This document shows positions 17,771 through 38,743 of a stretch of DNA of 64,000 nucleotides, one piece after another (within the stretch, counting starts at the first letter, position 1; every line of letters begins with the position of its first letter). Under the pieces are notes generated by a model that was not told the origin of the DNA, searched no databases, and saw only the letters and a program-made list of their open reading frames with translations. The stretch comes from Earliella scabrosa (taxonomy: Eukaryota; Basidiomycota; Agaricomycetes; Polyporales; Polyporaceae): NCBI GenBank assembly GCA_022605405.1, contig JABYQQ010000011.1, positions 186,001-250,000 on the forward strand, given 5' to 3'. Made by a program: the position numbers and the translations under genes.

Positions 17771-18350
17771 TGATGAACTTCAGACCTGGAAGGCTGGGAG
17801 CCGACTGTAAGTCGAACAGAGAGAGATCTTCAGTCAGTGAGCGAACGACTATATTGCATAGATAAGTACCTGTAAGTCGAACAGAGAGAGACTACAAGTA
17901 CTTAGTCAGTAAGTAAGTAGAAGGCATATGTATGTAGGAGACTTACTCTTCAGTCAGTGAGCGAACGACTGAAGAGCAGAGGCGAAATGTGAGCTGCTTA
18001 TATAGAGAGAGGGAAGGTAGCTGAGTAAGCGTAGAAAGCAGTCACATGTTAGCCACAAGACGATGAGTAAGAGGCATACGAGGCTATGGTGCGAGGATGA
18101 GTCAGTATGATGCGAGGATGAGCACCAAGTCTGAGTCAGACATAAGGTCTGGAACTATCCGGAATATCGTAGAACGCACTGGTACGTAGAGGTAAAGTCC
18201 GGAAAGAAAGAACTATCGTACAGATGCAGAGTTATCTATATATAGTAACGAAGAAGCATAGCCCATGCTGTGCGTCATGTGAACGCATAGCCACAAGTCC
18301 ATATGGGGACATATCGGTCCGGACAGTGCCGGATAACCCTAAGTTCAACA
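17771..18350 (-). repeat. 3' LTR of element A
   Basis: 580 bp, TG...CA when read on the minus strand (starts TGTTGAACTTAGGG, ends GAAGTTCATCA). Long LTR form with the 55-nt intron-like segment and repeated R-region block described for element B. Confidence 0.93.
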
Positions 18351-18361
18351 CTCCCACTCGT

Positions 18362-21300
18362 TCAAGATGTGACATAAGCAAGACCAATCTCTTGGACAAA
18401 CTTCGACTGAATTGCCAAAGGCACATTCTTAGTCAGAGCGTCGGCGAGTTGATCCGCAGTCGCTACATAGAAGATCTCGGTCGATCCCAACTCCACCTGC
18501 TCTCGGATGAAGTGGTATCTAACCTCGATGTGTTTGGTCCGGCGGTCGATCACGGGATTGACGGACAGGAAGATAGACCCCTGATTGTCAAGACACATGG
18601 GAGTTGGTCGAGACATGTCATCGCCGAGTTCTTCACCGAACGTCCTCAGCCACACCAATTGACGACAAGTGTCAGAGGCCGCTTTATACTCCGCTTCGGT
18701 CGAGGAAAGCGAAATGGTAGGCTGACGCCTCGATGCCCACGATATAGCAGCACCTGCCATCAGAAAGATGAAGCCAGAGGTAGAATGCCGATCATCACGG
18801 TCTTCGGCCCAGTCCGAATCGGAGTACGAAATCAGACCGTCATTAGACGCTCCCTGGTAGCGCAGCCGGTACGCCTTAGTACCCTGAAGATACCGGAGGA
18901 CATACTTGGCATAGTGAAGATGCGCGTCTGAAGGATTGGCATTGAACTTCGAAAGCCGCGTGACAGCAAAGGCTATGTCGGGCCGCGTACCGAGCATGGC
19001 GTACAGAAGACTGCCAATCAAGCTCTGATAGCGCTGACGCGACGCATCGGTGGCGGTGTGCTCAGATGACTCTAGAACAGCACCAGCAGGGAGAGGGGTA
19101 CGCGACGGCTTACAGTCGGCCATGTGAAAGCGCTCGAGAACAGACTGGATGTACTCTTCCTGGTCAATCTCGATGATCCGCGAAGCACGGTCACGAGTGA
19201 TGCGAAGACCAAGGAAACGCTGAACTGGTCCCAAGTCCGTCATTTTGTACTGCTTAGAAAGCGAACGCTTCACGTGCTGTATGTGGCCAGGCTGATCGCC
19301 GAGGAGAAGTAGATCGTCGACATAAAGAACGACGATAGTGACGTGATCCCCCCCTTGTCGCCGATATACGTAGATCCCGGCATCGGAATAGGTCCGTTTG
19401 AATCCCAGGCTAATAAGCGACTGATGGATTTTCACGTTCCACTGACGGGATGCCTGCTTAAGACCGTAGATTGCCTTTTTCAGCAGACACACGTGATCCT
19501 CCTTGCCAGGAACGATCCAACCTTCCGGCTGTTCCATGTAGATCTCCTCATCCAGATCACCGTTAAGGAACGCGGTCTTGACATCCATTGACTCGATGTC
19601 CCAGTCCTCAAGCGCTGCATGCGCGAGAAGGTACCGGATAGACTCGAACCGCGCCACGGGGGAGAAGGTCTCGTGATAGTCCTCGCCCCACACCTGAGTG
19701 AAACCCTTAGCGACTAGACGAGCTTTGTACCGCCCATCGTGCTTGATGTCATAGACCCAGCGGTTAGAGACCACGTGCCGATCTTTCGGACGAGGGACAA
19801 GGACCCAAGTCTTCTTCTCGAGCAACGAGTCATACTCCGCTTTCTCCGCATCGCGCCATTTCTCAGCTTCAGGCGACTTCATGGCTTCCTTGTGGGAGTT
19901 CGGAATGCCAGTTTTGTACTGAGACGCCATGAGAAACATGAGAAGCGCTTGGTCCTCTCGCTGCGTGCCATCCGGATCAGTCCGGGCATCGACTTTAGCC
20001 GGTGGCTCGTCGCCGTACACGTTATCACGAGTCTTTGACTCGGACCGTTTACCCGCATTCTCACGCCGTGGTCTGTCACGCGCAAGGCTGGGAGGCTGTT
20101 CTCCCACTGGAGGGTGACGTCCTCGCTTGTGAGCAGGCTTAGGCGGTGGTACAGCAGGCGGTTGAGGCGGTTGCGGCGGCGGAGGAGCAGGGGCGTCGGC
20201 TGGAGGAGGCGCTTCAGCTGGAGGTGGCTGAGCATCCGCTGGAGGGTCAGGTGGTAGATCTGGGAGTTCAGGAACAATCTCGGGATGGAGGTCGTCCTCA
20301 TGACCGTCGACATCGGCTTCTGAAGCCTTATCAGACTGATCATCTGGGAACGGATGGTCATCCGGGGTAACAGGATGATTGCCGGGGAGTTTACGAGCAG
20401 GGAAAGACTCTTCATCGAATGTCACATCGCGAGACACTACGATAGAGCGGTTGGCTGGATTCCAAAACTTATACCCCTTGGAACCAGACTCATACCCCAC
20501 GAAGATCATCTCGACAGCCTTCTTGTCGAGTTTCCCTTCGCGCTTTGCCTTCTGCACGTGTACAAAGGCTTTGCACCCAAACACTCGGAAGTAGGAGACG
20601 TCTGGAATGGTTCCGTCCCACTTGGTGATGGGGCATTGCCATTTGTGTCGACGCATCGGTTGACGATTGTAGATATGAACGGCTGCATCAACGGCGAGTT
20701 GCCAGAAACCGTGACTAAGACCTGCCTGATGGAGCATGGCCATGGCCTTTTCGACGATAGTACGGTTCCAGCGCTCAGCGCGTCCATTCTGCTGCGGAGA
20801 GCCAGGCATAGTCTTCTGGTGCTCGATCCCGTGCGAACGAAGAAGCTCAGAGAACTCGGTAGAAGTGTATTCTCCCCCTCGGTCCGAGCGGACCTTCTTG
20901 ATCTTTCGACCGGTCTGGGTCTCAGCCCACGCCTTGTAGTCGAGGAACGCTTGGAACGCATCCGACTTCGACTTAAGGTAGTAAGCACGGGCGAGTCCGG
21001 AGTAGTCATCAATGAAACCGGCGAAATACTTGTAACCTCCGATAGCTTGGGTGCGCATCGGGCCATCAAGATCGGTGTGAACGAGCTCGAGTGGTTCCGT
21101 AGCACGCTTATCAGAAGGTGGAAAGGGGAGACGAGTGGATTTGCCCCAGGCACATCCCTCACACGGTTCATCTTCGTCTTCAGGGGAATCAACAGAATCA
21201 ACCCCTCGGACGTTCTTCGGGAGATGGCGCAGCGCATCCTTGCCGAGATGACCAAAGCGACGGTGCAAGGTACGAAAGCGGCTGACGTTAAGATGAACAC

Positions 21301-21422
21301 GCTGGCCATTGTGAAGTTCGAGCTTAGCCCAGTAGATATTGCTCAGGACGTTGTACTCCGCTTCAAGGATCTTGCGACCCTTGATTCGAATCGTCGAACC
21401 AAATTTGACAGCGCCTTCCGGC
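18362..21422 (-). pseudogene. element A pol, 3' part (integrase, reverse transcriptase, RNase H)
   Basis: One open minus-strand frame from the element B junction (21422) to the stop at 18362, about 1020 codons. It has GAG-pre-integrase HRRFGH...CEGCAWGKS, the integrase D,D35E core (HTDLDGP, SDRGGEY, NGRAERWNR), a Pro-rich linker, reverse transcriptase with YVDDLLLL, and RNase H with STEAEYKAAS. No internal stop. It cannot make a full product because gag and protease lie beyond the 7.6 kb element B at 29045-30293. Confidence 0.9.
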
Positions 21423-22002
21423 TGTTGAACTTAGGGTTATCCGGCACTGTCCGGACCGATATGTCCCCATATGGACTTGTGGCTATGCGTTCACATGACG
21501 CACAGCATGGGCTATGCTTCTTCGTTACTATATATAGATAACTCTGCATCTGTACGATAGTTCTTTCTTTCCGGACTTTACCTCTACGTACCAGTGCGTT
21601 CTACGATGTTCCGGATAGTTCCAGACCTTATGTCTGACTCAGACTTGGTGCTCATCCTCGCGTCATACTGACTCATCCTCGCACCATAGCCTCGTATGCC
21701 TCTTACTCATCGTCTTGTGGCTAACATGTGACTGCTTTCTACGCTTACTCAGCTACCTTCCCTACGTCTATATAAGCAGCTCACATTTCGCCTCTGCTCT
21801 TCAGTCGTTCGCTCACTGACTGAAGAGTAAGTCTCATACATACATATGCTCTCTACTTACTTACTGACTAAGTACTTGTAGTCTCTCTCTGTTCGACTTA
21901 CAGGTACTTATCTATGCAATATAGTCGTTCGCTCACTGACTGAAGATCTCTCTCTGTTCGACTTACAGTCGGCTCCCAGCCTTCCAGGTCTGAAGTTCAT
22001 CA
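21423..22002 (+). repeat. 5' LTR of element B
   Basis: 580 bp, TGTTGAAC...GTTCATCA. TATATAAG at 21769-21776. After the hairpin CTTCAGTC...GACTGAAG comes a 55-nt segment 21827-21881 (GTAAGT...TTACTGACTAA...TTGTAG) that interrupts a sequence repeated uninterrupted about 65 bp further on. The 460-bp LTR of element C lacks this segment and one repeat. Confidence 0.93.
21769..21776 (+). promoter_or_regulatory. TATA box in LTR of element B
   Basis: TATATAAG, followed by the pyrimidine-rich stretch where transcription would start. Expected Pol II promoter position in a copia LTR. The same motif is in all LTR copies here. Confidence 0.6.
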
Positions 22003-22019
22003 GGTTATGAGCCCTGCGC
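22003..22019 (+). promoter_or_regulatory. primer binding site of element B
   Basis: GGTTATGAGCCCTGCGC directly after the LTR. Its complement, GCGCAGGGCTCATAACC, is the anticodon-stem and CAU-loop sequence of initiator tRNA-Met, as in Drosophila copia, whose primer is a 5' half of that tRNA. Confidence 0.7.
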
Positions 22020-24796
22020 TCTGACTGGTTGCTACTTCGTCGACATCTTCGTGCGCACACCTCTCTCTTCGTCGACTCTCTGCCCGTGCTCCCTCCATCT
22101 TTCCTCACCTCTTGACTGTGCCCGCCGACACTGCTGCCAGGGGGACATTCCTGCGCTCGTGACGCAGCCCTGAGCGCTTTTGTTTAGTTGTCGCGTAGCT
22201 AAGTACTGTTGTACAGCCTGTTGTGCTCTCGAGGCATTTGGGCTTTCAGGTATCCCTCTGCCAGGCCACGCACTTGCGCCCGCCAGCAGTTGTATCCGGG
22301 GTGCTTATCACCTTTGGAGACGGAGGACAACCGTGTGGACCCTCCTTACCGTACCCTTTGCTCTCGTATAGCTACTATAGTCTTTCTGGGCACAGTTGGC
22401 AACTTCTATCCAGATTGTCGGGATCTCCAGCTTCCTGACTTTCTTGGCTCGCCTCAATAGGTGTTCCCCATCTACCGTTTCGCACGTGGCATCGTCAATC
22501 ATCGCACCCTTCTAGACCACAGTTTTGGAGCCGACACCAGCATCTCCTCCCTCTGAGGCGGAAGTCGAGGATCTGATTGACTCCCAGTCGTCATCTGATT
22601 CCTCTGACTACGTACCCACTGCTGATTCTTGCCGGGATCGTCCCCACATCCTAGACGAGGAGTTCCCTTCGGACTCTCATCTCCACTCGGACGGCTTCTG
22701 GTACAACTGTAACCGAGAACTTTGTCCTCATCGGTACAACGGAGTCCGACCCGAAAAATATCCTGGCACATTCAAGTGGGCTCTTCCATCACCCGATCAG
22801 GAGGATTTCCTTGCTGGAGTCAACACTGCCCTTCCAGTCGCATCAGACACACCCTATACCACTCCTCTTCCTTTCATCGTCCTAATCCCTCCTACTCCGG
22901 AGGTTATCCCTGAGCCATTCGAGACTCTCCCTCCTCCTCTCGTCGAGTTACCTCCTCCTATCGCAACACCGCTTCCGCCGGTCACACCGGTAACAACATC
23001 TATAGACTTCTCGGAGGACTATCTCGACTCATCGCACTTTCTCTTATCAATCATGGGAGACGTCAAGCTTGACTCTATCCCTTCCCTTTCGTCGGCGAAC
23101 CAGTACACCGACTGGTCTGCCAAGATGAAGGGCTACTTCATCTTCATGGGCTGTTGGGACGTCGTCAACGGCAAGACCACTCGTCCGACTGCTGCTGACA
23201 AGCAGGAGGCATGGGACAAGCTCGACGGGCAGGCTCGCGGCATGATGTACATGCAGGTCGCTCAGAGCTTCCATTATGTCCTCGATGCGGAGATACTTGC
23301 AACCGTCACAAGTGGTCAGTCCTCGACCACTACGTCTCGGGAACAGACCGCAGCCGAGATGTGGAAGTCCCTGAAGGACAAGTTTGGCACGCCGAACAGC
23401 GCTCATGTCTGGGGCCAGTTCGAGACCCTTGTGGCTGAACCTCGGATGAACGAGCAGAAGTCCCTCCAGGATCAGATGATGCGTATCGTCAACCGCATGG
23501 ATGACATCACCAAGAACAAGGTGACGCTCTCTGCCCAGATGAAGGCCCTCCTCCTTCTGTCGAAGATTCCGGAGTCCTATCGATCTATGATCTCTGCGCT
23601 CATGGCGACCATCGACGTCGACAAGGTCACAGTCGAGGACATCATGTCCAAGACCTTGGCCGAGGAGTCGCTGCGCAAGGCCGGACAATCCGCGAACCGG
23701 GTCTCGCAGACCAAGCCTAAGCCTAAGGGTCCTTGCTCTCACTGCGGTGGCTCTAATCATCATGAGTCTAACTGCTGGGACAAGCATCCCGAGAAGAAGC
23801 CCAAGGGCAAAGGCAAGGGAAAGGGAAAGGCGAAGGACAAGGACAAGGACAAGGACAAAGGAAATAACAAGGACAATCAGCCCCATGCGCATACCGTCGT
23901 CGAGTCTCAGTCTGTAAATGTAGTCGCGTCGTCTAACATTGTTGGTTCTTTCTACCCCGAGGCCCTCGTTGCCTCTAGTGAGAACTGGACTGCATGGCTG
24001 ATGGACTCAGGTGCCTCTCAACACATCACGGGCGACCTAAGTGACTTCTCCGAGTATCAGCCGTTTGATACGCCCATCAGCTTCAATACTGCTGATGCGA
24101 GCAACATGATCCTTGCTCTCGGAAAGGGCACAGTCCGTGGTAACACTTGGGTTGATGGTGACAAAGTTCCGATCGAGCTCACCCATGTGTACTACATTCC
24201 GAAGTTGAGAGGTCGTATCTTCTCGACAGGCACCATTGAGCGCAATGGGTACTCCCTTGTCCAAGGAGATGGGAAGATGTGCATCTTTGACAAGCTGCCG
24301 GAAGGCGCTGTCAAATTTGGTTCGACGATTCGAATCAAGGGTCGCAAGATCCTTGAAGCGGAGTACAACGTCCTGAGCAATATCTACTGGGCGAAGCTCG
24401 AACTTCACAATGGCCAGCGTGTTCATCTTAACGTCAGCCGTTTTCGTACCTTGCATCGTCGCTTTGGTCATCTCGGCAAGGATGCGCTGCGCCATCTCCC
24501 GAAGAACGTCCGAGGGGTTGATTCTGTTGATTCCCCTGAAGACAAAGATGAACCGTGTGAGGGATGTGCCTGGGGCAAATCCACTCGACTCCCCTTCCCG
24601 CCTTCTGATAAGCGTGCTACGGAACCACTCGAGCTCGTTCACACCGACCTTGATGGCCCGATGCGCACACAAGCTATCGGAGGTTATAAGTATTTCGCCG
24701 GTTTCATTGATGACTACTCCGGACTCGCCCGTGCTTACTACCTTAAGTCGAAGTCGGATGCGTTCCAAGCTTTCCTCGACTACAAGGCGTGGGCTG

Positions 24797-25491
24797 TAGT
24801 GCCGTAGGGTCAGGTCATACGACCGGTCAATGACTGGAAAATAACCGTAACTGATGCGTAAATAACCTGACCATAACCGTTTACAATCAGTTATGGTTAT
24901 GGTCATGGTCACGGTCATTGAGAATGACAAAAATTGTATAACTGCAGATGACTGGTTATGACCAGTCATATTTTACCTGCTAAGACCAGTCATGACTGAT
25001 CATTGACTGGTCATATACAAGGTACAATGGAAACACTTCGAAATATATTAAATTCAGCAGCGCTGGCAAGTGGAAAATACCAGTCTCTAGTTAACTCTGG
25101 TCTAATCAAACAGATCAAAGATGCTCAGTGCTGTCTATAGACAGACTGAATGACAGACCAATATCCATATCAATATCAATCCATGTAGATATAGAAGGCT
25201 CTCTCCAGTAATAAGCATGAAAATTACTTCTGTATTACATTTAAGATGTTTTTCTAACCTGGTGGATCAAATGACTGGTCTTAACTTGATCTGACCAGTT
25301 ATAACTGGTCATAACTGCATGTTCAGTCATGACCGGTCAATGACCGTAACTGGACCGTAACTGAACTGATAATAACCTGACCGAAAGATCAGTCAGGTCA
25401 TGAGCCATCTGCTGAAGATCAGTCATGGTCATGGTCATGGTCATGGCCCAGAGGGGTCAATGACCTGACTTGACCTGACCCTACGGCACTA
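24797..25491. mobile_element. hAT-type MITE 1 (695 bp)
   Basis: Terminal inverted repeats TAGTGCCGTAGGGTCAGGTC at both ends, flanked by a perfect 8-bp target duplication GTGGGCTG (24789-24796 and 25492-25499); element C shows the empty site. TIR start TAGTG fits the hAT pattern. No transposase frame. The subterminal parts hold many GGTCA/TGACC units in both orientations (for example repeated TCATGG near 25420-25445), which could be transposase binding sites. Interior is AT-richer than host DNA. Confidence 0.9.
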
Positions 25492-27007
25492 GTGGGCTGA
25501 GACCCAGACCGGTCGAAAGATCAAGAAGGTCCGCTCGGACCGAGGGGGAGAATACACTTCTACCGAGTTCTCTGAGCTTCTTCGTTCGCACGGGATCGAG
25601 CACCAGAAGACCATGCCTGGCTCTCCGCAGCAGAATGGACGCGCTGAGCGCTGGAACCGTACTATCGTCGAAAAAGCCATGGCCATGCTCCATCAGGCAG
25701 GTCTTAGTCACGGTTTTTGGCAACTCGCCGTTGATGCAGCCGTTCATATCTACAATCGTCAACCGATGCGTCGACACAAATGGCAATGCCCCATCACCAA
25801 GTGGGACGGAACCGTTCCGGACGTCTCCTACTTCCGAGTGTTTGGGTGCAAAGCCTTTGTACACGTGCAGAAGGCAAAGCGCGAAGGGAAACTCGACAAG
25901 AAGGCTGTCGAGATGATCTTCGTGGGGTATGAGTCTGGTTCCAAGGGGTATAAGTTTTGGAATCCAGCCAACCGCTCTATCGTAGTGTCTCGCGATGTGA
26001 CATTCGATGAAGAGTCTTTCCCTGCTCGTAAACTCCCCGGCAATCATCCTGTTACCCCGGATGACCATCCGTTCCCAGATGATCAGTCTGATAAGGCTTC
26101 TGAAGCCGATGTCGACGGTCATGAGGACGACCTCCATCCCGAGATTGTTCCTGAACTCCCAGATCTACCACCTGACCCTCCAGCGGATGCTCAGCCACCT
26201 CCAGCTGAAGTGCCTCCTCCAGCCGACGCCCCTGCTCCTCCGCCGCCGCAACCGCCTCAACCGCCTGCTGTACCACCGCCTAAGCCTGCTCACAAGCGAG
26301 GACGTCACCCTCCAGTGGGAGAACAACCTCCCAGCCTTGCACGTGACAGACCACGGCGTGAGAACGCGGGTAAACGGTCCGAGTCGAAGACTCGTGATAA
26401 CGTATACGGCGACGAGCCACCGGCTAAAGTCGATGCCCGGACTGATCCGGATGGCACGCAGCGAGAGGACCAAGCGCTTCTCATGTTTCTCATGGCGTCT
26501 CAGTACAAAACTGGCATTCCGAACTCCCACAAGGAAGCCATGAAGTCGCCTGAAGCTGAGAAATGGCGCGATGCGGAGAAAGCGGAGTATGACTCGTTGC
26601 TCGAGAATAAGACTTGGGTCCTTGTCCCTCGTCCGAAAGATCGGCACGTGGTCTCTAACCGCTGGGTCTATGACATCAAGCACGATGGGCGGTACAAAGC
26701 TCGTCTAGTCGCTAAGGGTTTCACTCAGGTGTGGGGCGAGGACTATCACGAGACCTTCTCCCCCGTGGCGCGGTTCGAGTCTATCCGGTACCTTCTCGCG
26801 CATGCAGCGCTTGAGGACTGGGACATCGAGTCAATGGATGTCAAGACCGCGTTCCTTAACGGCGATCTGGATGAGGAAATCTACATGGAACAGCCGGAAG
26901 GTTGGATCGTTCCTGGCAAGGAGGATCACGTGTGTCTGCTGAAAAAGGCTATCTACGGTCTTAAGCAGGCATCCCGTCAGTGGAACGTGAAAATCCACCA
27001 GTCGCTT

Positions 27008-27392
27008 TAAGGCTGAGCACGGATCGATCCACGTGTGATCTGGATCTGTACCTACAGGTCAAGCAGTCAAAAAATGCTCGACCTGGATCTGCACGGATCA
27101 TGATCTGTTGTGATCTGGATCTGTTTTGACCTGAACCTACAGGTCAGATCACGGATTGATCTGTGGATCAGCAATATGTTTCATGTATAAATAGATAAAA
27201 TTCATGAAAACAAGTGATATATTGCTCAAAAGTTTTGACCTGTGACCTGAATGTAAGATGGAAATCTCTGACCTGGATCCGCAATGACCTGGATCTGTTT
27301 GATCTGGATCTGTTTTGATCTGAACCTACAGGTCAAATTTCAGGTCGGATCCAGATCTACCTGTGCTTGACCTGGATCCATGCTCAGCCTTA
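27008..27392. mobile_element. hAT-type MITE 2 (385 bp)
   Basis: Terminal inverted repeats TAAGGCTGAGCA, flanked by a perfect 8-bp target duplication AGTCGCTT (27000-27007 and 27393-27400); the empty site is intact in elements A and C. The interior consists largely of GATCTGGATCTG and ACCTACAGGTCA units in both orientations. No coding capacity. TIR differs from MITE 1, so it belongs to a different family of the same superfamily. Confidence 0.9.
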
Positions 27393-28464
27393 AGTCGCTT
27401 ATTAGCCTGGGATTCAAACGGACCTATTCCGATGCCGGGATCTACGTATATCGGCGACAAGGGGGGGATCACGTCACTATCGTCGTTCTTTATGTCGACG
27501 ATCTACTTCTCCTCGGCGATCAGCCTGGCCACATACAGCACGTGAAGTGTTCGCTTTCTAAGCAGTACAAAATGACGGACTTGGGACCAGTTCAGCGTTT
27601 CCTTGGTCTTCGCATCACTCGTGACCGTGCTACGCGGATCATCGAGATCGACCAGGAAGAGTACATCCAGTCCGTTCTCGAGCGCTTTCACATGGCCGAC
27701 TGTAAGCCGTCGCGTACCCCTCTCCCTGCTGGTGCTGTTCTAGAGTCATCTGAGCACACCGCCACCGATGCGTCGCGTCAGCGCTATCAGAGCTTGATTG
27801 GCAGTCTTCTGTACGCCATGCTCGGTACGCGGCCCGACATAGCCTTTGCTGTCACGCGGCTTTCGAAGTTCAATGCCAATCCCTCAGACGCGCATCTTCA
27901 CTATGCCAAGTATGTCCTCCGGTATCTTCAGGGTACTAAGGCGTACCGGCTGCGCTACCAGGGAGCGTCTAATGACGGTCTGATTTCGTACTCCGATTCG
28001 GACTGGGCTGAAGACCGTGATGATCGGCATTCTACCTCTGGCTTCATCTTTCTGATGGCAGGTGCTGCTATATCGTGGGCATCGAGGCGTCAGCCTACCA
28101 TTTCGCTTTCCTCGACTGAAGCGGAGTATAAAGCGGCCTCTGACACTTGTCGTCAATTGGTGTGGCTGAGGACGTTCAGTGAAGAACTCGGCGATGACAT
28201 GTCTCGACCAACTCCCATGTGTCTTGACAATCAGGGGTCTATCTTCCTGTCCGTCAATCCCGTGATCGACCGCCGGACCAAGCACATCGAGGTTAGATAC
28301 CACTTCATCCGAGAGCAGGTGGAGTTGGGATCGACCGAGATCTTCTATGTAGCGACTGCGGATCAACTCGCCGACGCTCTGACTAAGAATGTGCCTTTGG
28401 CAATTCAGTCGAAGTTTGTCCAAGAGATTGGTCTTGCTTATGTCACATCTTGAACGAGTGGGAG

Positions 28465-29044
28465 TGTTGAACTTAGGGTTATCCGGCACTGTCCGGACCG
28501 ATATGTCCCCATATGGACTTGTGGCTATGCGTTCACATGACGCACAGCATGGGCTATGCTTCTTCGTTACTATATATAGATAACTCTGCATCTGTACGAT
28601 AGTTCTTTCTTTCCGGACTTTACCTCTACGTACCAGTGCGTTCTACGATGTTCCGGATAGTTCCAGACCTTATGTCTGACTCAGACTTGGTGCTCATCCT
28701 CGCGTCATACTGACTCATCCTCGCACCATAGCCTCGTATGCCTCTTACTCATCGTCTTGTGGCTAACATGTGACTGCTTTCTACGCTTACTCAGCTACCT
28801 TCCCTACGTCTATATAAGCAGCTCACATTTCGCCTCTGCTCTTCAGTCGTTCGCTCACTGACTGAAGAGTAAGTCTCATACATACATATGCTCTCTACTT
28901 ACTTACTGACTAAATACTTGTAGTCTCTCTCTGTTCGACTTACAGGTACTTATCTATGCAATATAGTCGTTCGCTCACTGACTGAAGATCTCTCTCTGTT
29001 CGACTTACAGTCGGCTCCCAGCCTTCCAGGTCTGAAGTTCATCA
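28465..29044 (+). repeat. 3' LTR of element B
   Basis: 580 bp, preceded by the purine-rich GAGTGGGAG as polypurine tract. Nearly identical to the 5' LTR. The adjoining element A frame reads on into this LTR on the minus strand, which creates a chimeric tail with no biological meaning. Confidence 0.93.
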
Positions 29045-30815
29045 CCGGCAGCTTGTCAAAGATGCACATCTTCCCATCTCCTTGAACAAGGGAGTACCCG
29101 TTGCGCTCAATGGTGCCTGTCGAGAAGATACGACCTCTCAACTTCGGGATGTAGTACACATGGGTGAGCGCGATCGGAACTTTGTCACCATCAACCCAAG
29201 TGTTACCACGGACTGTGCCCTTCCCGAGAGCAAGGATCATGTTGCTCGCATCAGCAGTATTGAAGCTGATGGGCGTATCAAACGGTTGATACTCGGAGAA
29301 GTCACTTAGGTCGCCCGTGATATGCTGAGAAGCACCTGAGTCCATCAGCCATGCAGTCCAGTTCTCACTAGAGGCAACGAGGGCCTCGGGGTAGAAAGAA
29401 CCAACAATGTTAGACGACGCGACTACATTTACAGACTGAGACTCGACGACGGTATGCGCATGGGGCTGATTGTCCTTGTTATTCCCTTTGTCCTTGTCCT
29501 TATCCTTGTCCTTCGCCTTTCCCTTTCCCTTGCCTTTGCCCTTGGGCTTCTTCTCGGGATGCTTGTCCCAGCAGTTAGACTCATGATGATTAGAGCCACC
29601 GCAGTGAGAGCAAGGACCCTTAGGCTTAGGCTTGGTCTGCGAGACCCGGTTCGCGGATTGTCCGGCCTTGCGCAGCGACTCCTCGGCCAAGGTCTTGGAC
29701 ATGATGTCCTCGACGGTGACCTTGTCGACGTCGATGGTCGCCATGAGCGCAGAGATCATAGACCGATAGGACTCCGGAATCTTCGACAAAAGGAGGAGGG
29801 CCTTCATCTGGGCAGAGAGCGTCACCTTGTTCTTGGTGATGTCATCCATGCGGTTGACGATACGCATCATCTGATCCTGGAGGGGCTTCTGCTCATTCAT
29901 CCGAGGTTCAGCCACAAGGGTCTCGAACTGTCCCCAGACGTGAGCGCTGTTCGGCGTGCCAAACTTGTCCTTCAGGGACTTCCACATGTCTGCTGCGGTC
30001 TGTTCCCGAGATGTAGTGGTAGAGGACCCACTGGTTGTAACGGTGTCGAGAATTTCCGCATCGAGGATGTAATGGAAGCTCTGAGCGACCCGCATGTACA
30101 TCATGCCGCGAGCCTGCCCGTCGAGCTTGTCCCAGGACTCCTGCTTGTCAGCAGCAGTCGGACGTTTGGTCTTGCCGTTGACGACGTCCCAACAGCCCAT
30201 GAAGATGAAGTAGCCCTTCATCTTGGCAGACCAGTCGGTGTACTGGTTTGCCGACGAAAGGGAAGGGATAGAGTCGAGCTTGACGTCTCCCATAATTGAT
30301 AAGAGAAAGTGCGATGAGTCGAGATAGTCCTCCGAGAAGTCTACGGATGTTGTTACCGGTGTGACCGGCGGAAGCGGTGTTGCGATAGAAGGAGGTAACT
30401 CGATGAGAGGAGGAGGGAGAGTCTCGAATGGCTCAGGGATAACCTCCGGAGTAGGAGGGATTAGGACGATGAAAGGAAGAGGAGTGGTATAGGGTGTGTC
30501 TGATGCGACTGGAAGGGCAGTGTTGACTCCAGCAAGGAAATCCTCCTGATCGGGTGATGGTAGAGCCCACTTGAATGTGCCAGGATATTTTTCGGGTCGG
30601 ACTCCGTTGTACCGATGAGGACAAAGTTCTCGGTTACAGTTGTACCAGAAGCCGTCCGAGTGGAGATGAGAGTCCGAAGGGAACTCCTCGTCTAGGATGT
30701 GGGGACGATCCCGGCAAGAATCAGCAGTGGGTACGTAGTCAGAGGAGTCAGATGACGACTGGGAGTCAATCAGATCCTCGACTTCCGCCTCAGAGGGAGG
30801 AGATGCTGGTGTCGG
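29045..30815 (-). pseudogene. element A gag and protease part
   Basis: Minus-strand frame from a TTG at about 30821 (ATG of MGDVKLDS at 30293) down to the element B junction. Gag, then the CCHC knuckle CSHCGGSNHHESNC, the Lys/Asp-rich KGKGKGKAKDKDKDK run and the protease motif LMDSGASQH. The upstream ATG-less extension is also open. Relative to B it shares the N-terminal block, and relative to C the block around residue 60-110, so the copy is a mosaic. Confidence 0.9.
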
Positions 30816-31320
30816 CTCCAAAACTGTGGTCTAGAAGGGTGCGATGATTGACGATGCCACGTGCGAAACGGTAGATGGGGAACACCTATTGAGGCGAGCC
30901 AAGAGAGTCAGGAAGCTGGAGATCCCGACAATCTGGATAGAAGTTGCCAACTGTGCCCAGAAAGACTATAGTAGCTATACGAGAGCAAAGGGTACGGTAA
31001 GGAGGGTCCACACGGTTGTCCTCCGTCTCCAAAGGTGATAAGCACCCCGGATACAACTGCTGGCGGGCGCAAGTGCGTGGCCTGGCAGAGGGATACCTGA
31101 AAGCCCAAATGCCTCGAGAGCACAACAGGCTGTACAACAGTACTTAGCTACGCGACAACTAAACAAAAGCGCTCAGGGCTGCGTCACGAGCGCAGGAATG
31201 TCCCCCTGGCAGCAGTGTCGGCGGGCACAGTCAAGAGGTGAGGAAAGATGGAGGGAGCACGGGCAGAGAGTCGACGAAGAGAGAGGTGTGCGCACGAAGA
31301 TGTCGACGAAGTAGCAACCA

Positions 31321-31343
31321 GTCAGAGCGCAGGGCTCATAACC
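31321..31343 (-). promoter_or_regulatory. primer binding site of element A
   Basis: Reading on the minus strand, GGTTATGAGCCCTGCGCTCT follows the 5' LTR directly; same tRNA-iMet anticodon-arm match as in B and C. Confidence 0.65.
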
Positions 31344-31923
31344 TGATGAACTTCAGACCTGGAAGGCTGGGAGCCGACTGTAAGTCGAACAGAGAGAGAT
31401 CTTCAGTCAGTGAGCGAACGACTATATTGCATAGATAAGTACCTGTAAGTCGAACAGAGAGAGACTACAAGTACTTAGTCAGTAAGTAAGTAGAAGGCAT
31501 ATGTATGTAGGAGACTTACTCTTCAGTCAGTGAGCGAACGACTGAAGAGCAGAGGCGAAATGTGAGCTGCTTATATAGAGAGAGGGAAGGTAGCTGAGTA
31601 AGCGTAGAAAGCAGTCACATGTTAGCCACAAGACGATGAGTAAGAGGCATACGAGGCTATGGTGCGAGGATGAGTCAGTATGATGCGAGGATGAGCACCA
31701 AGTCTGAGTCAGACATAAGGTCTGGAACTATCCGGAATATCGTAGAACGCACTGGTACGTAGAGGTAAAGTCCGGAAAGAAAGAACTATCGTACAGATGC
31801 AGAGTTATCTATATATAGTAACGAAGAAGCATAGCCCATGCTGTGCGTCATGTGAACGCATAGCCACAAGTCCATATGGGGACATATCGGTCCGGACAGT
31901 GCCGGATAACCCTAAGTTCAACA
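31344..31923 (-). repeat. 5' LTR of element A
   Basis: 580 bp; long form with intron-like segment. Followed by CACCC, the second copy of the target duplication. Confidence 0.93.
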
Positions 31924-32246
31924 CACCCTCCGCCTCGAGCTCGTGTACGGAGGCTGCACAAGCGCTGTCCACACCGCCCATGCATGCGATCTTCCCGTCA
32001 CGCACGACGACGACCCCAGCGGCCGACCCGTCCTGCGACCGTGCGGAGAACCCTTCCCGGACGGCGTTATCCTCGCGCACAAAAACGCTCTTCACATTGG
32101 TGAACACGACCGTGCGGGCGCGCGACGGCTTCGGCTCGAGCGGCGGAAGACCGTCGTACGCAAGGGTCTGCTCCCGCTCGTTGTCAAAGTTGGGCGTCTT
32201 CGGCAGCTCTTGGAACGCCTCGGGCTTGGTGAGGAGGTGCGGGGCG
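31924..32246 (-). pseudogene. CE9-type amidohydrolase pseudogene, middle piece
   Basis: Continues the exon broken at 17770 and corresponds to about 52541-52855 of the intact gene (NVKSVFVREDNAVREGFSAR, DGSAAGVVVVRDGKIACMGG). Reading frame is kept within the piece. Cut at 32246 by the solo LTR with duplication GGGCG. Confidence 0.85.
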
Positions 32247-32448: not shown

Positions 32449-32908
32449 TGTTGAACTTAGGGTTATCCGGCACTGTCCGGACCGATATGTCCCCATATGG
32501 ACTAGTGGCTATGCGTTCACATGACGCACAGCATGGGCTATGCTTCTTCGTTACTATATATAGATAACTCTGCATCTGTACGATAGTTCTTTCTTTCCGG
32601 ACTTTACCTCTACGTACCAGTGCGTTCTACGATATTCCGGATAGTTCCAGACCTTATGTCTGACTCAGACTTGGTGCTCATCCTCGCGTCATACTGACTC
32701 ATCCTCGCACCATAGCCTCGTATGCCTCTTACTCATCGTCTTGTGGCTAACATGTGACTGCTTTCTACGCTTACTCAGCTACCTTCCCTCCCTCTATATA
32801 AGCAGCTCACATTTCGCCTCTGCTCTTCAGTCGTTCGCTCACTGACTGAAGATCTCTCTCTGTTCGACTTACAGTCGGCTCCCAGCCTTCCAGGTCTGAA
32901 GTTCATCA
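32449..32908 (+). repeat. 5' LTR of element C
   Basis: 460 bp, short form: joins GACTGAAGA directly to TCTCTCTCTGTTCGACTTAC, lacking the 120 bp present in A and B LTRs. TATATAAG at 32795-32802. Confidence 0.95.
32795..32802 (+). promoter_or_regulatory. TATA box in LTR of element C
   Basis: TATATAAG about 115 bp before the LTR end; probable Pol II promoter of the genomic transcript. Confidence 0.6.
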
Positions 32909-32925
32909 GGTTATGAGCCCTGCGC
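32909..32925 (+). promoter_or_regulatory. primer binding site of element C
   Basis: GGTTATGAGCCCTGCGC starts at the base after the LTR. It is complementary to the anticodon arm of initiator tRNA-Met, not to a tRNA 3' end, as known for copia. It also contains the only ATG of the roughly 520-nt leader, followed by five codons and a stop. Confidence 0.75.
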
Positions 32926-33421
32926 TCTGACCGGTTGCTACTTCGTCGACATCTTCGTGCGCACACCTCTCTCTTCGTCGACTCTCTGCCCGTGCTCCCT
33001 CCATCTTTCCTCACCTCTTGACTGTGCCCGCCGACACTGCTGCCAGGGGGACATTCCTGCGCTCGTGACGCAGCCCTGAGCGCTTTTGTTTCGTTGTCGC
33101 GTAGCTAAGTACTGTTGTACAGCCTGTTGTGCTCTCGAGGCATTTGGGCTTTCAGGTATCCCTCTGCCAGGCCACGCACTTGCGCCCGCCAGCAGTTGTA
33201 TCCGGGGTGCTTATCACCTTTGGAGACGGAGGACAACCGTGTGGACCCTCCTTACCGTACCCTTTGCTCTCGTATAGCTACTATAGTCTTTCGGGGCACA
33301 GTTGGCAACTTCTATCCAGATTGTCGGGATCTCCAGCTTCCTGACTCTCTTGGCTCGCCTCAATAGGTGTTCCCCATCTACCGTTTCGCACGTGGCATCG
33401 TCAATCATCGCACCCTTCTAG

Positions 33422-36400
33422 ACCACAGTTTTGGAGCCGACACCAGCATCTCCTCCCTCTGAGGCGGAAGTCGAGGATCTGATTGACTCCCAGTCGTCGT
33501 CGGACTCCTCTGACTACAAACCCACCGTCGACTCTTGTCAGGAACTTCCACACGTTCTCGACGAGGAATACCCTGCCGATTCTCATCTCCATCCGGAGGA
33601 CGGCTTCTGGTACAACTGTCACCGGAGTCCTTGTCCTCATCGGTACAACGGGGTTCCCGTTCAACCCGAAGATTATCCTGACACATTCAAGTGGGCTTTC
33701 CCCTCTCCTGACCAAGAGGATTTCCTTGCTGGAGTCAACACTGCCCTTCCAGTCGCATCAGACACACCCTATACCACTCCTCTTCCTTTCATCGTCCTAA
33801 TCCCTCCTACTCCGGAGGTTATCCCTGAGCCAATCGAGACTCTCCCTCCTCCTCTCATCGAGTTACCTCCTCCTATTGCAACACCGCTTCCACCGGTCGC
33901 ACCGGTAACAACATCCGTAGACTTCTCGGAGGACTATCTCGACTCATCGCACTTTCTCTTATCAATCATGGGAGACGTCAAGCTCGACTCTATCCCTTCC
34001 CTTTCGTCGGCGAACCAGTACACCGACTGGTCTGCCAAGATGAAGGGCTACTTCATCTTCATGGGCTGTTGGGACGTTGTCAACGGCAAGACCAAACGTC
34101 CGACTGCTGCTGACAAGCAGGAGTCCTGGGACAAGCTCGACGGGCAGGCTCGCGGCATGATGTACATGCGGGTCGCTCAGAGCTTCCATTACATCCTCGA
34201 TGCGGAAATTCTCGACACTGTTACAACCAGTGGGTCCTCTACCACTACATCTCGGGAACAGACCGCAGCAGACATGTGGAAGTCCCTGAAGGACAAGTTT
34301 GGCACGCCGAACAGCGCTCACGTCTGGGGACAGTTCGAGACCCTTGTGGCTGAACCTCGGATGAACGAGCAGAAGTCCCTGCAGGATCAGATGATGCGTA
34401 TCGTCAACCGCATGGATGACATCACCAAGAACAAGGTGACACTCTCTGCCCAGATGAAGGCCCTCCTCCTTCTGTCGAAGATTCCGGAGTCTTATCGGTC
34501 TATGATCTCTGCGCTCATGGCGACCATCGACGTCGACAAGGTCACCGTCGAGGACATCATGTCCAAGACCTTGGCCGAGGAGTCGCTGCGCAAGGCCGGA
34601 CAATCCGCGAACCGGGTCTCACAGACCAAGCCTAAGCCTAAGGGTCCTTGCTCTCACTGCGGTGGCTCTAATCATCATGAGTCTAACTGCTGGGACAAGC
34701 ATCCCGAGAAGAAGCCCAAGGGCAAAGGCAAGGGAAAGGGAAAGGCGAAGGACAAGGATAAGGACAAGGACAAAGGGAATAACAAGGACAATCAGCCCCA
34801 TGCGCATACCGTCGTCGAGTCTCAGTCTGTAAATGTAGTCGCGTCGTCTAACATTGTTGGTTCTTTCTACCCCGAGGCCCTCGTTGCCTCTAGTGAGAAC
34901 TGGACTGCATGGCTGATGGACTCAGGTGCCTCTCAACACATCACGGGCGACCTAAGTGACTTCTCCGAGTATCAGCCGTTTGATACGCCCATCAGCTTCA
35001 ATACTGCTGATGCGAGCAACATGATCCTTGCTCTCGGGAAGGGCACGGTCCGTGGTAACACTTGGGTTGATGGTGACAAAGTTCCGATCACGCTCACCCA
35101 TGTGTACTACATCCCGAAGTTGAGAGGTCGTATCTTCTCGACAGGCACCATTGAGCGCAATGGGTACTCCCTTGTCCAAGGAGATGGGAAGATGTGCATC
35201 TTTGACAAGCTGCCGGAAGGCGCTGTCAAATTTGGTTCGACGATTCGAATCAAGGGTCGCAAGATCCTTGAAGCGGAGTACAACGTCCTGAGCAATATCT
35301 ACTGGGCTAAGCTTGAACTTCACAATGGCCAGCGTGTTCATCTTAACGTCAGCCGTTTTCGTACCTTGCATCGTCGCTTTGGTCATCTCGGCAAGGACGC
35401 GCTGCGCCATCTCCCGAAGAACGTCCGAGGGGTTGATTCTGTTGATTCCCCTGAAGACGAAGATGAACCGTGTGAGGGATGTGCCTGGGGCAAATCCACT
35501 CGTCTCCCCTTTCCACCTTCTGATAAGCGTGCTACGGAACCACTCGAGCTCGTTCACACCGATCTTGATGGCCCGATGCGCACCCAAGCTATCGGAGGTT
35601 ACAAGTATTTCGCCGGTTTCATTGATGACTACTCCGGACTCGCCCGTGCTTACTACCTTAAGTCGAAGTCAGATGCGTTCCAAGCGTTCCTCGACTACAA
35701 GGCGTGGGCTGAGACCCAGACCGGTCGAAAGATCAAGAAGGTCCGCTCAGACCGAGGGGGAGAATACACTTCTACCGAGTTCTCTGAGCTTCTTCGTTCG
35801 CACGGGATCGAGCACCAGAAGACCATGCCTGGCTCTCCGCAGCAGAATGGACGCGCTGAGCGCTGGAACCGTACTATCGTCGAAAAAGCCATGGCCATGC
35901 TCCATCAGGCAGGTCTTAGTCACGGTTTCTGGCAACTCGCCGTTGATGCAGCCGTTCATATCTACAATCGTCAACCGATGCGTCGACACAAATGGCAATG
36001 CCCCATCACCAAGTGGGACGGAACTGTTCCGGACGTCTCCTACTTCCGAGTGTTTGGGTGCAAAGCCTTTGTACACGTGCAGAAGGCAAAGCGCGAAGGG
36101 AAACTCGATAAGAAGGCTGTCGAGATGATCTTCGTGGGGTATGAGTCTGGTTCCAAGGGGTATAAGTTTTGGAATCCAGCCAACCGCTCTATCGTAGTGT
36201 CTCGCGATGTGACATTCGATGAAGAGTCTTTCCCTGCTCGTAAACTCCCCGGCAACCATCCTGTTACCCCGGATGACCATCCGTTCCCAGATGATCAGTC
36301 TGATAAGGCCTCCGAAGCCGATGTCGACGGTCATGAGGACAACCTCCATCCCGAGATTGTTCCTGAACTCCCAGATCTACCATCTGACCCTCCAGCGGAT

Positions 36401-38272
36401 GCTCAGCCACCTCCTGCTGAAGCGCCTCCTCCAGCCGACGCCCCTGCTCCTCCGCCGCCGCAACCGCCTCAACCGCCTGCTGTACCACCGCCTAAGCCTG
36501 CTCACAAGCGAGGACGTCACCCTCCAGTGGGAGAACAGCCTCCCAGCCTTGCGCGTGACAGACCACGGCGTGAGAATGCAGGTAAACGGTCCGAGTCGAA
36601 GACTCGTGATAACGTGTATGGCGACGAGCCACCGGCTAAAGTCGATGCCCGGACTGATCCGGATGGCACGCAGCGAGAGGACCAAGCGCTTCTCATGTTT
36701 CTCATGGCGTCTCAGTACAAAACTGGCATTCCGAACTCCCACAAGGAAGCCATGAAGTCGCCTGAAGCTGAGAAATGGCGCGATGCGGAGAAAGCGGAGT
36801 ATGACTCGTTGCTCGAGAATAAGACTTGGGTCCTTGTCCCTCGTCCGAAAGATCGGCACGTGGTCTCCAACCGCTGGGTCTATGACATCAAGCATGATGG
36901 GCGGTACAAAGCTCGTCTAGTCGCTAAGGGTTTCACTCAGGTGTGGGGCGAGGACTATCACGAGACCTTCTCCCCTGTGGCGCGGTTCGAGTCTATCCGG
37001 TACCTCCTCGCGCATGCAGCGCTTGAGGACTGGGACATCGAGTCAATGGATGTCAAGACCGCGTTCCTTAACGGCGATCTGGATGAGGAGATCTACATGG
37101 AACAGCCGGAAGGTTGGATCGTTCCTGGCAAGGAGGATCACGTGTGTCTGCTGAAAAAGGCAATCTACGGTCTTAAGCAGGCATCCCGTCAGTGGAACGT
37201 GAAAATCCACCAGTCGCTTATTAGCCTGGGATTCAAACGGACCTATTCCGATGCCGGGATCTACGTATATCGGCGACAAGGGGGGGATCACATCACTATC
37301 GTCGTTCTTTATGTCGACGATCTACTTCTCCTCGGCGATCAGCCTGGCCACATACAGCACGTGAAGCGTTCGCTTTCTAAGCAGTACAAAATGACGGACT
37401 TGGGACCAGTTCAGCGGTTCCTTGGTCTTCGCATCACTCGTGACCGTGCTACGCGGATCATCGAGATCGACCAGGAAGAGTACATCCAGTCCGTTCTCGA
37501 GCGCTTTCACATGGCCGACTGTAAGCCGTCGCGTACCCCTCTCCCTGCTGGTGCTGTTCTAGAGTCATCTGAGCACACCGCCACCGATGCGTCGCGTCAG
37601 CGCTATCAGAGCTTGATTGGCAGTCTTCTGTACGCCATGCTCGGTACGCGGCCCGACATAGCCTTTGCTGTCACGCGGCTTTCGAAGTTCAATGCCAATC
37701 CCTCAGACGCGCATCTTCACTATGCCAAGTATGTCCTCCGGTATCTTCAGGGTACTAAGGCGTACCGGCTGCGCTACCAGGGAGCGTCTAATGACGGTCT
37801 GATTTCGTACTCCGATTCGGACTGGGCTGAAGACCGTGATGATCGGCATTCTACCTCTGGCTTCATCTTTCTGATGGCAGGTGCTGCTATATCGTGGGCA
37901 TCGAGGCGTCAGCCTACCATTTCGCTTTCCTCGACCGAAGCGGAGTATAAAGCGGCCTCTGACACTTGTCGTCAATTGGTGTGGCTGAGGACGTTCGGTG
38001 AAGAACTCGGCGATGACATGTCTCGACCAACTCCCATGTGTCTTGACAATCAGGGGTCTATCTTCCTGTCCGTCAATCCCGTGATCGACCGCCGGACCAA
38101 GCACATCGAGGTTAGATACCACTTCATCCGAGAGCAGGTGGAGTTGGGATCGACCGAGATCTTCTATGTATCGACTGCGGATCAACTCGCCGACGCTCTG
38201 ACTAAGAATGTGCCTTTGGCAATTCAGTCGAAGTTCGTCCAAGAGATTGGTCTTGCTTATGTCACATCTTGA
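33422..38272 (+). CDS. Gag-Pol polyprotein of copia element C, intact
   Basis: First ATG at 33968 gives 1434 residues; the frame is also open and coding-like from 33422, directly after TAG, for 182 codons without ATG. Numbered from 33968: Gag with the UBN2-like pattern (1-220), CCHC knuckle CSHCGGSNHHESNC (about 228-241), basic/acidic KGKGKG...KDKDK run, aspartic protease DSGAS (Asp318), GAG-pre-integrase HRRFGH with CEGC (468-515), integrase D532, D595, E631 (exact D-D-35-E), Pro-rich linker (about 760-830), reverse transcriptase with YVDD at 1115-1118, RNase H with STEAEYKAAS near 1320. It copies element RNA into DNA and inserts it. No stop or frameshift seen; Gag and Pol share one frame, so their ratio must be set by processing or by other means. 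Confidence 0.95.
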   Translation, partial: TTVLEPTPASPPSEAEVEDLIDSQSSSDSSDYKPTVDSCQELPHVLDEEYPADSHLHPEDGFWYNCHRSPCPHRYNGVPVQPEDYPDTFKWAFPSPDQEDFLAGVNTALPVASDTPYTTPLPFIVLIPPTPEVIPEPIETLPPPLIELPPPIATPLPPVAPVTTSVDFSEDYLDSSHFLLSIMGDVKLDSIPSLSSANQYTDWSAKMKGYFIFMGCWDVVNGKTKRPTAADKQESWDKLDGQARGMMYMRVAQSFHYILDAEILDTVTTSGSSTTTSREQTAADMWKSLKDKFGTPNSAHVWGQFETLVAEPRMNEQKSLQDQMMRIVNRMDDITKNKVTLSAQMKALLLLSKIPESYRSMISALMATIDVDKVTVEDIMSKTLAEESLRKAGQSANRVSQTKPKPKGPCSHCGGSNHHESNCWDKHPEKKPKGKGKGKGKAKDKDKDKDKGNNKDNQPHAHTVVESQSVNVVASSNIVGSFYPEALVASSENWTAWLMDSGASQHITGDLSDFSEYQPFDTPISFNTADASNMILALGKGTVRGNTWVDGDKVPITLTHVYYIPKLRGRIFSTGTIERNGYSLVQGDGKMCIFDKLPEGAVKFGSTIRIKGRKILEAEYNVLSNIYWAKLELHNGQRVHLNVSRFRTLHRRFGHLGKDALRHLPKNVRGVDSVDSPEDEDEPCEGCAWGKSTRLPFPPSDKRATEPLELVHTDLDGPMRTQAIGGYKYFAGFIDDYSGLARAYYLKSKSDAFQAFLDYKAWAETQTGRKIKKVRSDRGGEYTSTEFSELLRSHGIEHQKTMPGSPQQNGRAERWNRTIVEKAMAMLHQAGLSHGFWQLAVDAAVHIYNRQPMRRHKWQCPITKWDGTVPDVSYFRVFGCKAFVHVQKAKREGKLDKKAVEMIFVGYESGSKGYKFWNPANRSIVVSRDVTFDEESFPARKLPGNHPVTPDDHPFPDDQSDKASEADVDGHEDNLHPEIVPELPDLPSDPPADAQPPPAEAPPPADAPAPPPPQPPQPPAVPPPKPAHKRGRHPPVGEQPPSLARDRPRRENAGKRSESKTRDNVYGDEPPAKVDARTDPDGTQREDQALLMFLMASQYKTGIPNSHKEAMKSPEAEKWRDAEKAEYDSLLENKTWVLVPRPKDRHVVSNRWVYDIKHDGRYKARLVAKGFTQVWGEDYHETFSPVARFESIRYLLAHAALEDWDIESMDVKTAFLNGDLDEEIYMEQPEGWIVPGKEDHVCLLKKAIYGLKQASRQWNVKIHQSLISLGFKRTYSDAGIYVYRRQGGDHITIVVLYVDDLLLLGDQPGHIQHVKRSLSKQYKMTDLGPVQRFLGLRITRDRATRIIEIDQEEYIQSVLERFHMADCKPSRTPLPAGAVLESSEHTATDASRQRYQSLIGSLLYAMLGTRPDIAFAVTRLSKFNANPSDAHLHYAKYVLRYLQGTKAYRLRYQGASNDGLISYSDSDWAEDRDDRHSTSGFIFLMAGAAISWASRRQPTISLSSTEAEYKAASDTCRQLVWLRTFGEELGDDMSRPTPMCLDNQGSIFLSVNPVIDRRTKHIEVRYHFIREQVELGSTEIFYVSTADQLADALTKNVPLAIQSKFVQEIGLAYVTS

Positions 38273-38274
38273 AC

Positions 38275-38283
38275 GAGTGGGAG
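38275..38283 (+). promoter_or_regulatory. polypurine tract of element C
   Basis: GAGTGGGAG directly before the 3' LTR, the expected site for plus-strand priming; one T interrupts it. Confidence 0.55.
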
Positions 38284-38743
38284 TGTTGAACTTAGGGTTA
38301 TCCGGCACTGTCCGGACCGATATGTCCCCATATGGACTAGTGGCTATGCGTTCACATGACGCACAGCATGGGCTATGCTTCTTCGTTACTATATATAGAT
38401 AACTCTGCATCTGTACGATAGTTCTTTCTTTCCGGACTTTACCTCTACGTACCAGTGCGTTCTACGATATTCCGGATAGTTCCAGACCTTATGTCTGACT
38501 CAGACTTGGTGCTCATCCTCGCGTCATACTGACTCATCCTCGCACCATAGCCTCGTATGCCTCTTACTCATCGTCTTGTGGCTAACATGTGACTGCTTTC
38601 TACGCTTACTCAGCTACCTTCCCTCCCTCTATATAAGCAGCTCACATTTCGCCTCTGCTCTTCAGTCGTTCGCTCACTGACTGAAGATCTCTCTCTGTTC
38701 GACTTACAGTCGGCTCCCAGCCTTCCAGGTCTGAAGTTCATCA
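38284..38743 (+). repeat. 3' LTR of element C
   Basis: 460 bp, no difference from the 5' LTR found by eye. Followed by TCCAC. Confidence 0.95.

Follow-up and report, generated by a model that had tools for sequence, protein, structure and literature searches.

A candidate non-AUG-initiated extension of Gag in retrotransposon families of Earliella scabrosa

Copy C and the open frame upstream of Gag

The window analysed here, a 64,000-nt stretch of the 51.7-Mb Earliella scabrosa assembly (C11:186001-250000), contains three copies (A, B and C) of a retrotransposon in which a long open frame without AUG precedes Gag. Copy C (32449-38743) is bounded by identical 5′ and 3′ long terminal repeats (LTRs) of 460 nt each. 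Between them, the domains Retrotran_gag_2, rve, SH3_retrovirus and RVT_2 score above their cut-offs in this order, within a single frame (33422-38272) of 1616 residues from stop to stop. With a copia-type gag, integrase before RVT_2, one frame and LTRs, copy C is a Ty1/copia element.

The first-pass annotation of this DNA had described an extension upstream of Gag that opens after a stop codon and has no AUG of its own. This layout was confirmed: after the TAG in CACCCTTCTAG, the frame is open for 182 codons in C and 179 in both B and A, and the Gag ATG comes directly next. The leader of C indeed has a single ATG, at position 32913, which reads MSPAL-stop; the preceding 32825-32908 has none. 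Beyond what was annotated, the extension is ATG-free in all frames, and the same pattern occurs in other families.

The genome holds at least 50 matches to the extension (all genome match counts given here are lower bounds). The 48 with a readable start were retained as family 1, and two fragments, L054 (residues 68-182 only) and L055 (residues 1-73 only), were dropped. Copies C and B differ at 42 codons, 32 of them within 33515-33715, and 16 of these 32 are silent; the gaps comprise a single codon and a pair of adjacent codons, which agrees with the 3- and 6-nt indels from which evolution as a protein had been proposed. Comparison of more copies bore this proposal out. The Nei-Gojobori ratio of nonsynonymous to synonymous divergence (dN/dS) was about 0.3 in family 1, far from 1 (0.30 for C/B, 0.31 for C/L050, 0.32 for C/L051 and 0.36 for B/L051), with synonymous-excess P values from 3e-4 to 1e-6 in these four pairs (C/B 1e-4; C/L051 1e-6). 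Outside family 1, it was 0.41 in family 2 (L087/L086) and 0.12 in family 3 (L090/L091, partial). Furthermore, the 48 copies have six extension lengths, every one a multiple of three. In the C/L051 pair, the extension carries 121 mismatches in 537 positions, with a third-position excess and gaps of 3, 6, 12, 6 and 3 nt, and the leader carries 20 mismatches in 512 aligned positions with two single-base gaps; gag dS is 0.27. Gag is under stronger constraint (dN/dS 0.06-0.16 in pairs excluding L053). The values of the L053 pairs (0.62-0.93) were set aside because the gag frame of L053 appears interrupted. Judged by these substitution patterns, the extension is protein-coding.

Between C and B, the divergence of 33515-33715 lies far above that of its flanks, silent sites included. 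This suggests recombination between subfamilies as its source, and given such mosaic divergence the conservation of the leader may partly reflect recombination as well.

The absence of ATG is general in family 1. In all 48 readable copies, no frame of the extension contains ATG and the Gag ATG follows, and in 45 of them the last 495 nt of the leader, after the primer site, also lack ATG. For the leader of C after the primer site, dinucleotide shuffles gave an expectation of 4.1 ATGs against 0 observed (P 0.0055). In gag-pol windows, out-of-frame ATGs were at or above expectation (7/7).

Related families, start codons and the leader element

A genome search with part of a relative protein, P0008, yielded family 2, a second copia family with at least 23 copies carrying the extension. 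The three copies read have the same primer-site sequence as family 1, a leader of ~500 nt with the primer-site ATG, and 149-152 extension codons, ATG-free in each, before a Gag starting with MSEAG. Two weak matches of the family-2 motif (E 9e-4) led to family 3, with at least 28 copies that have a readable start. Its Gag (L090/L093) matches Retrotrans_gag (24.4 bits, cut-off 24.1) and zf-CCHC (30.2, cut-off 20.8), the Ty3_capsid score of 17.5 is below the cut-off of 29.1, and the protease is located in a different frame from Gag. Family 3 is called Ty3/gypsy-type on the strength of the Gag Pfam matches and separate-frame protease in the stretch read. In L090, 564 ATG-free nt are followed by 207 ATG-free codons and a Gag that begins GCCACCATGT. 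One family-3 copy (G000:C8:2011187-2011942) has an open frame of 1412 residues, compared to 472-477 in most full-length copies.

Codon-preserving shuffles of C, L087 and L090 jointly gave an expectation of 6.65 ATGs against 0 observed (3/5000); with pol codon usage, 8.67 were expected and again 0 observed (0/5000). L053 by itself was significant in the codon-preserving test (P 0.001).

In each family, a single near-cognate codon flanked by a purine at −3 and G at +4 precedes the motif: GTT_TTG_G in family 1, ACA_GTG_G in family 2 (GCG_GTG_G in L086) and ATC_GTG_G in family 3. Codon 4 of the family-1 extension is TTG, within GTTTTGG, in 48/48 copies. The family-2 GUG is kept in 22 of 23 copies, the remaining one (C9:403341) not having been seen, and the family-3 GUG in 26 of 28. 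The other two, L097 and L098, have ATG at the same codon; L097 looks mutated, and L098 has diverged and, immediately 5′ of this codon, differs in length by an amount that changes the frame. CTG at codon 20 was rejected as a start, being present in C and replaced by CTT in L051 and L053.

The leaders share a conserved element. In an alignment of seven sequences, positions 33128-33258 of copy C match families 2 and 3 with a mean column identity of 93%. The 24-nt core has at least 98 genome matches at up to 2 mismatches (reversed control, 0), all of them 73-172 nt upstream of an extension: 48 in family 1, 23 in family 2 and 27 in family 3. A core match is missing for 5 of the 103 listed extensions or fragments, and a 28-nt piece of the element has at least 99 matches at up to 3 mismatches. 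RNAalifold predicted 36 pairs, with one double change (A-U/U-A, columns 39/68). Covariation support is modest, since 484 of 500 shuffles have as many double-change pairs and 27 of 500 reach the score. Predicted long-range stems close the leader in 3/3 family-1 and 2/2 family-2 sequences folded. Against Rfam, the element stayed below the gathering score (best hit 17.7 bits, E 2.8, opposite strand). A second leader block, 33017-33085, is near-identical in families 1 and 2 and unrecognisable in family 3.

In the search for the primer tRNA, the 17-mer of the primer site had 90 matches, and four extra ones yielded no tRNA; two that were extended look like other retrotransposons. Should the primer be a Met tRNA that pairs through its anticodon arm, the primer-site AUG could not be lost, which would explain the survival of that one AUG.

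Three further families differ in layout. L107 and L108 have the same primer-site sequence without the leader element; an in-frame Gag-like ATG lies 102 nt (L107) and 224 nt (L108) downstream of the primer site, with no long extension. L089 matches the Gag of the window (tblastn, E 1e-11), and its upstream region is ATG-rich. The stretches read of L089, L107 and L108 contained neither a match to the element core nor an AUG-free layout.

Named protein relatives come from Trametes, Rhodofomes and Phanerochaete. Six relatives align across the extension and the Gag start at 25-43% identity, and C39, H44, C66, C71, W91 and Q98 are invariant in the seven aligned sequences. The motif reads RDVFW...YNCDRQPCPNR in family 2 and RDVHW...KVCGNQPCPNR in family 3. 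P0006 and P0008-P0010 begin with MASS or MASE, resembling VASS of family 2, and P0002 and P0005 begin with MEPTT or LEPTT, resembling LEPTP of the window; all six (P0002, P0005, P0006, P0008, P0009 and P0010) are free of Met between the first residue and the Gag Met. P0003, P0007 and P0012-P0015 all start at or near the Gag Met. P0004 (Trametes punicea BD414DRAFT_541107) has a partial motif and Gag start behind ~870 unrelated residues. In a structure model of the extension, residues 41-100 reached pLDDT 79-86, with the model weak overall (mean pLDDT 62.9, pTM 0.35), and a PDB fold search with this weak model gave no match (best E 2.5). In viral contigs, neither a relative of P0002 nor the leader core was found.

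Features of the three copies are listed in Table 1. Copy B (21423-28868) is apparently nested inside copy A (17764-31928) and is ~700 nt longer than copy C, an excess located between offsets near 24800 and 25490. The window has a further pair of direct repeats, 16546-17590 and 51301-52838, which are 90-92% alike and ~34.8 kb apart.

Table 1. Positions of element features in the window.
Feature	Position	Strand	Remarks
5′ LTR, copy C, TG...CA, 460 nt	32449..32908	+	identical to 3′ LTR
3′ LTR, copy C	38284..38743	+	
Primer-site-like GGTTATGAGCCCTGCGCTCTGACC, directly 3′ of LTR	32909..32932	+	same sequence in family 2, L107, L108
Sole leader ATG, five-codon upstream open reading frame MSPAL-stop	32913..32930	+	
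Leader element, also present in families 2 and 3, 131 nt, 36 base pairs predicted	33128..33258	+	core 33228-33251
TAG stop opening the extension frame	33419..33421	+	TAG in 47/48, TAA in 1/48 copies
Predicted start codon UUG, context GTT_TTG_G	33431..33433	+	kept in 48/48 copies
Extension frame, 182 codons, ATG-free in all frames	33422..33967	+	predicted coding part 33431-33967
Cysteine/histidine (C/H)-rich motif of the extension	33536..33646	+	C39, H44, C66, C71 invariant in seven relatives
Gag-Pol frame from first Gag ATG: copia-type gag, integrase, RVT_2	33968..38272	+	
Extension, copy B, 179 codons	22516..23052	+	
Leader-element core, copy B	22322..22345	+	
Extension, copy A, 179 codons	30294..30830	-	
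Leader-element core, copy A	31001..31024	-	

Proposed initiation of the extended Gag

From what was observed directly, namely the layout, the coding evolution, the conserved codons and the lack of AUGs, we infer that one RNA would give two Gag forms. Scanning ribosomes would cross the long leader, AUG-free apart from the primer-site AUG, and a minority would initiate at the near-cognate codon, whose context is good (UUG at 33431 in copy C, GUG in families 2 and 3). The product would be an N-terminally extended Gag or Gag-Pol with the C/H-rich domain and a Pro/Ser-rich linker. The remaining ribosomes would traverse the AUG-free extension and initiate at the Gag AUG at 33968. Leaky scanning would be the simplest account, extended Gag coming from a weak non-AUG start and ordinary Gag, in greater amount, from a stronger AUG start; the leader element may contribute to initiation. 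As for the job of the domain, our guess is that the minority of Gag carrying it forms a minor particle subunit with a recruiting or targeting role.

Non-AUG initiation of the extended Gag, with ordinary Gag produced by leaky scanning, is in our view the best reading of the sequences and a probable one. Of the two options that the first-pass annotation had left, a non-AUG start and a spliced-on 5′ exon, the former gained from the near-cognate codon conserved in three families and from the AUG-free leader and extension, and the latter was weakened.

Several points weigh against non-AUG initiation. UUG is a weak near-cognate codon. Leader ATGs occur in L014 (6), L052 (12) and L053 (1) of family 1, and L086 of family 2 has a late one at −30; ATGs inside the extension appear in two of 11 short family-3 pieces (L094 and L097). 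The codon-preserving test gave no significance for copy C by itself (P 0.09-0.10, or 0.06 when pol usage was applied). Among the relatives, P0011 departs from the pattern, with a Met at an internal position and nothing comparable to the Gag Met, and the first Met of relatives, which were compared as proteins only, is possibly a gene caller's reading of ATG, GTG or TTG.

The alternative that fares best, though improbable, is that shunting or internal entry guided by the conserved leader RNA, in the style of plant pararetroviruses, reaches the non-AUG codon. A leader that is AUG-free after the primer site is unnecessary for shunting, and covariation support for its structure is modest; the leader does have the five-codon upstream open reading frame (uORF), predicted long-range stems that close it in all five folded sequences, and a conserved element whose matches all accompany such extensions. 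According to PMC5902531, rice tungro bacilliform virus (RTBV) uses a short uORF, a leader stem, an AUU start and then leaky scanning. The spacing differs from that type of shunt: the uORF ends at leader nt 22 and the well-supported stem lies near nt 79 (family 1) or nt 65 (family 2), with weaker pairs nearer, so that the first long stem is tens of nt past the uORF, compared to 7-8 nt in the examples of that review (PMC5902531).

Splicing of an AUG-bearing exon to the TAG boundary at 33421, which would let the extension be read from an ordinary AUG, is very unlikely. The boundary CACCCTTCTAG resembles a 3′ splice site, and CTTCTAG is conserved in family 1; however, the family-2 boundary is TGA, not AG, in all three copies read, and the predicted family-3 start lies 16-18 codons 3′ of the TAG in 10 of 11 compared copies. 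When all joins of an ATG-bearing donor to the TAG boundary were enumerated in five copies, one was common to 5/5: ATGAGCCCT, from the primer-site ATG, which gives three codons and uses a GC donor of poor consensus. The other joins in copy C begin in the LTR, upstream of a TATA-like site at 32795. Moreover, a leader that is spliced out would have no need to be AUG-free, and the elements, inserted at dozens of sites, could not draw on an exon in the flanking host DNA. Least credible is an extension that stays untranslated and is kept for a role of its RNA in packaging or folding. Such RNA-type conservation is strong in the neighbouring leader between C and L051, but the extension shows the opposite pattern in the same pair and has relatives at the protein level.

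More tentatively, with rather less than even confidence, we propose that the structured leader RNA and the non-AUG-started C/H-rich domain may form a portable cassette that moved between Ty1/copia and Ty3/gypsy elements and gave each an extended Gag. In this view, the leader RNA would direct or tune the start at UUG or GUG, with a possible further role in coupling translation to packaging.

Comparison with known systems

Gene finding places the Gag start at the first AUG, and such extensions are therefore missed by annotation; three families of one genome keep a frame of 149-207 codons that is invisible in this way. The near-identical leader element and related motif in copia-type and Ty3/gypsy-type elements point to exchange of a 5′ module across superfamilies. 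Comparable sites in the families carry UUG, GUG or AUG and offer a natural system for start-codon choice in fungi. In paper searches of the open-licence PubMed Central (PMC) texts, no report of this arrangement appeared.

Non-AUG-extended Gag as such is already known. The glycosylated Gag of murine leukaemia virus starts at CUG and has an 88-residue leader that bears a signal peptide; the product predicted here would likewise be an in-frame N-terminal extension of Gag from a non-AUG codon. The same holds for PEG10, a mammalian gene derived from a Ty3/gypsy element, in which a CUG start lies upstream of the Gag AUG and a Gag-like protein is made both from the non-AUG codon and from the downstream in-frame AUG, according to PMC2800197. 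By our reading of the frames, both precedents share their layout with the elements here: Gag is extended in frame ahead of its AUG by coding sequence that has no AUG of its own. In PEG10, the extension has 34 residues and belongs to a host gene (PMC2800197), whereas the frames here have 149-207 codons, with UUG or GUG, and belong to mobile elements whose leader is AUG-free and contains a conserved element.

The scheme proposed here also resembles that of RTBV in the short uORF, structured leader, non-AUG start and leaky scanning. The AUU start of RTBV is followed by leaky scanning through a long AUG-free stretch (PMC5902531); a stretch of this kind separates the predicted start from the next one in 48/48 family-1 copies, 3/3 family-2 copies and L090. 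The downstream AUGs of RTBV open other reading frames (PMC5902531), whereas the AUG here is in frame and would give a shorter Gag; a further difference is the AUG-free leader found here. Against these precedents, three things seem new: how long and how conserved the extension is in fungal transposons, the proposed UUG and GUG starts, and the occurrence of a shared leader element and motif in both copia-type and Ty3/gypsy-type elements.
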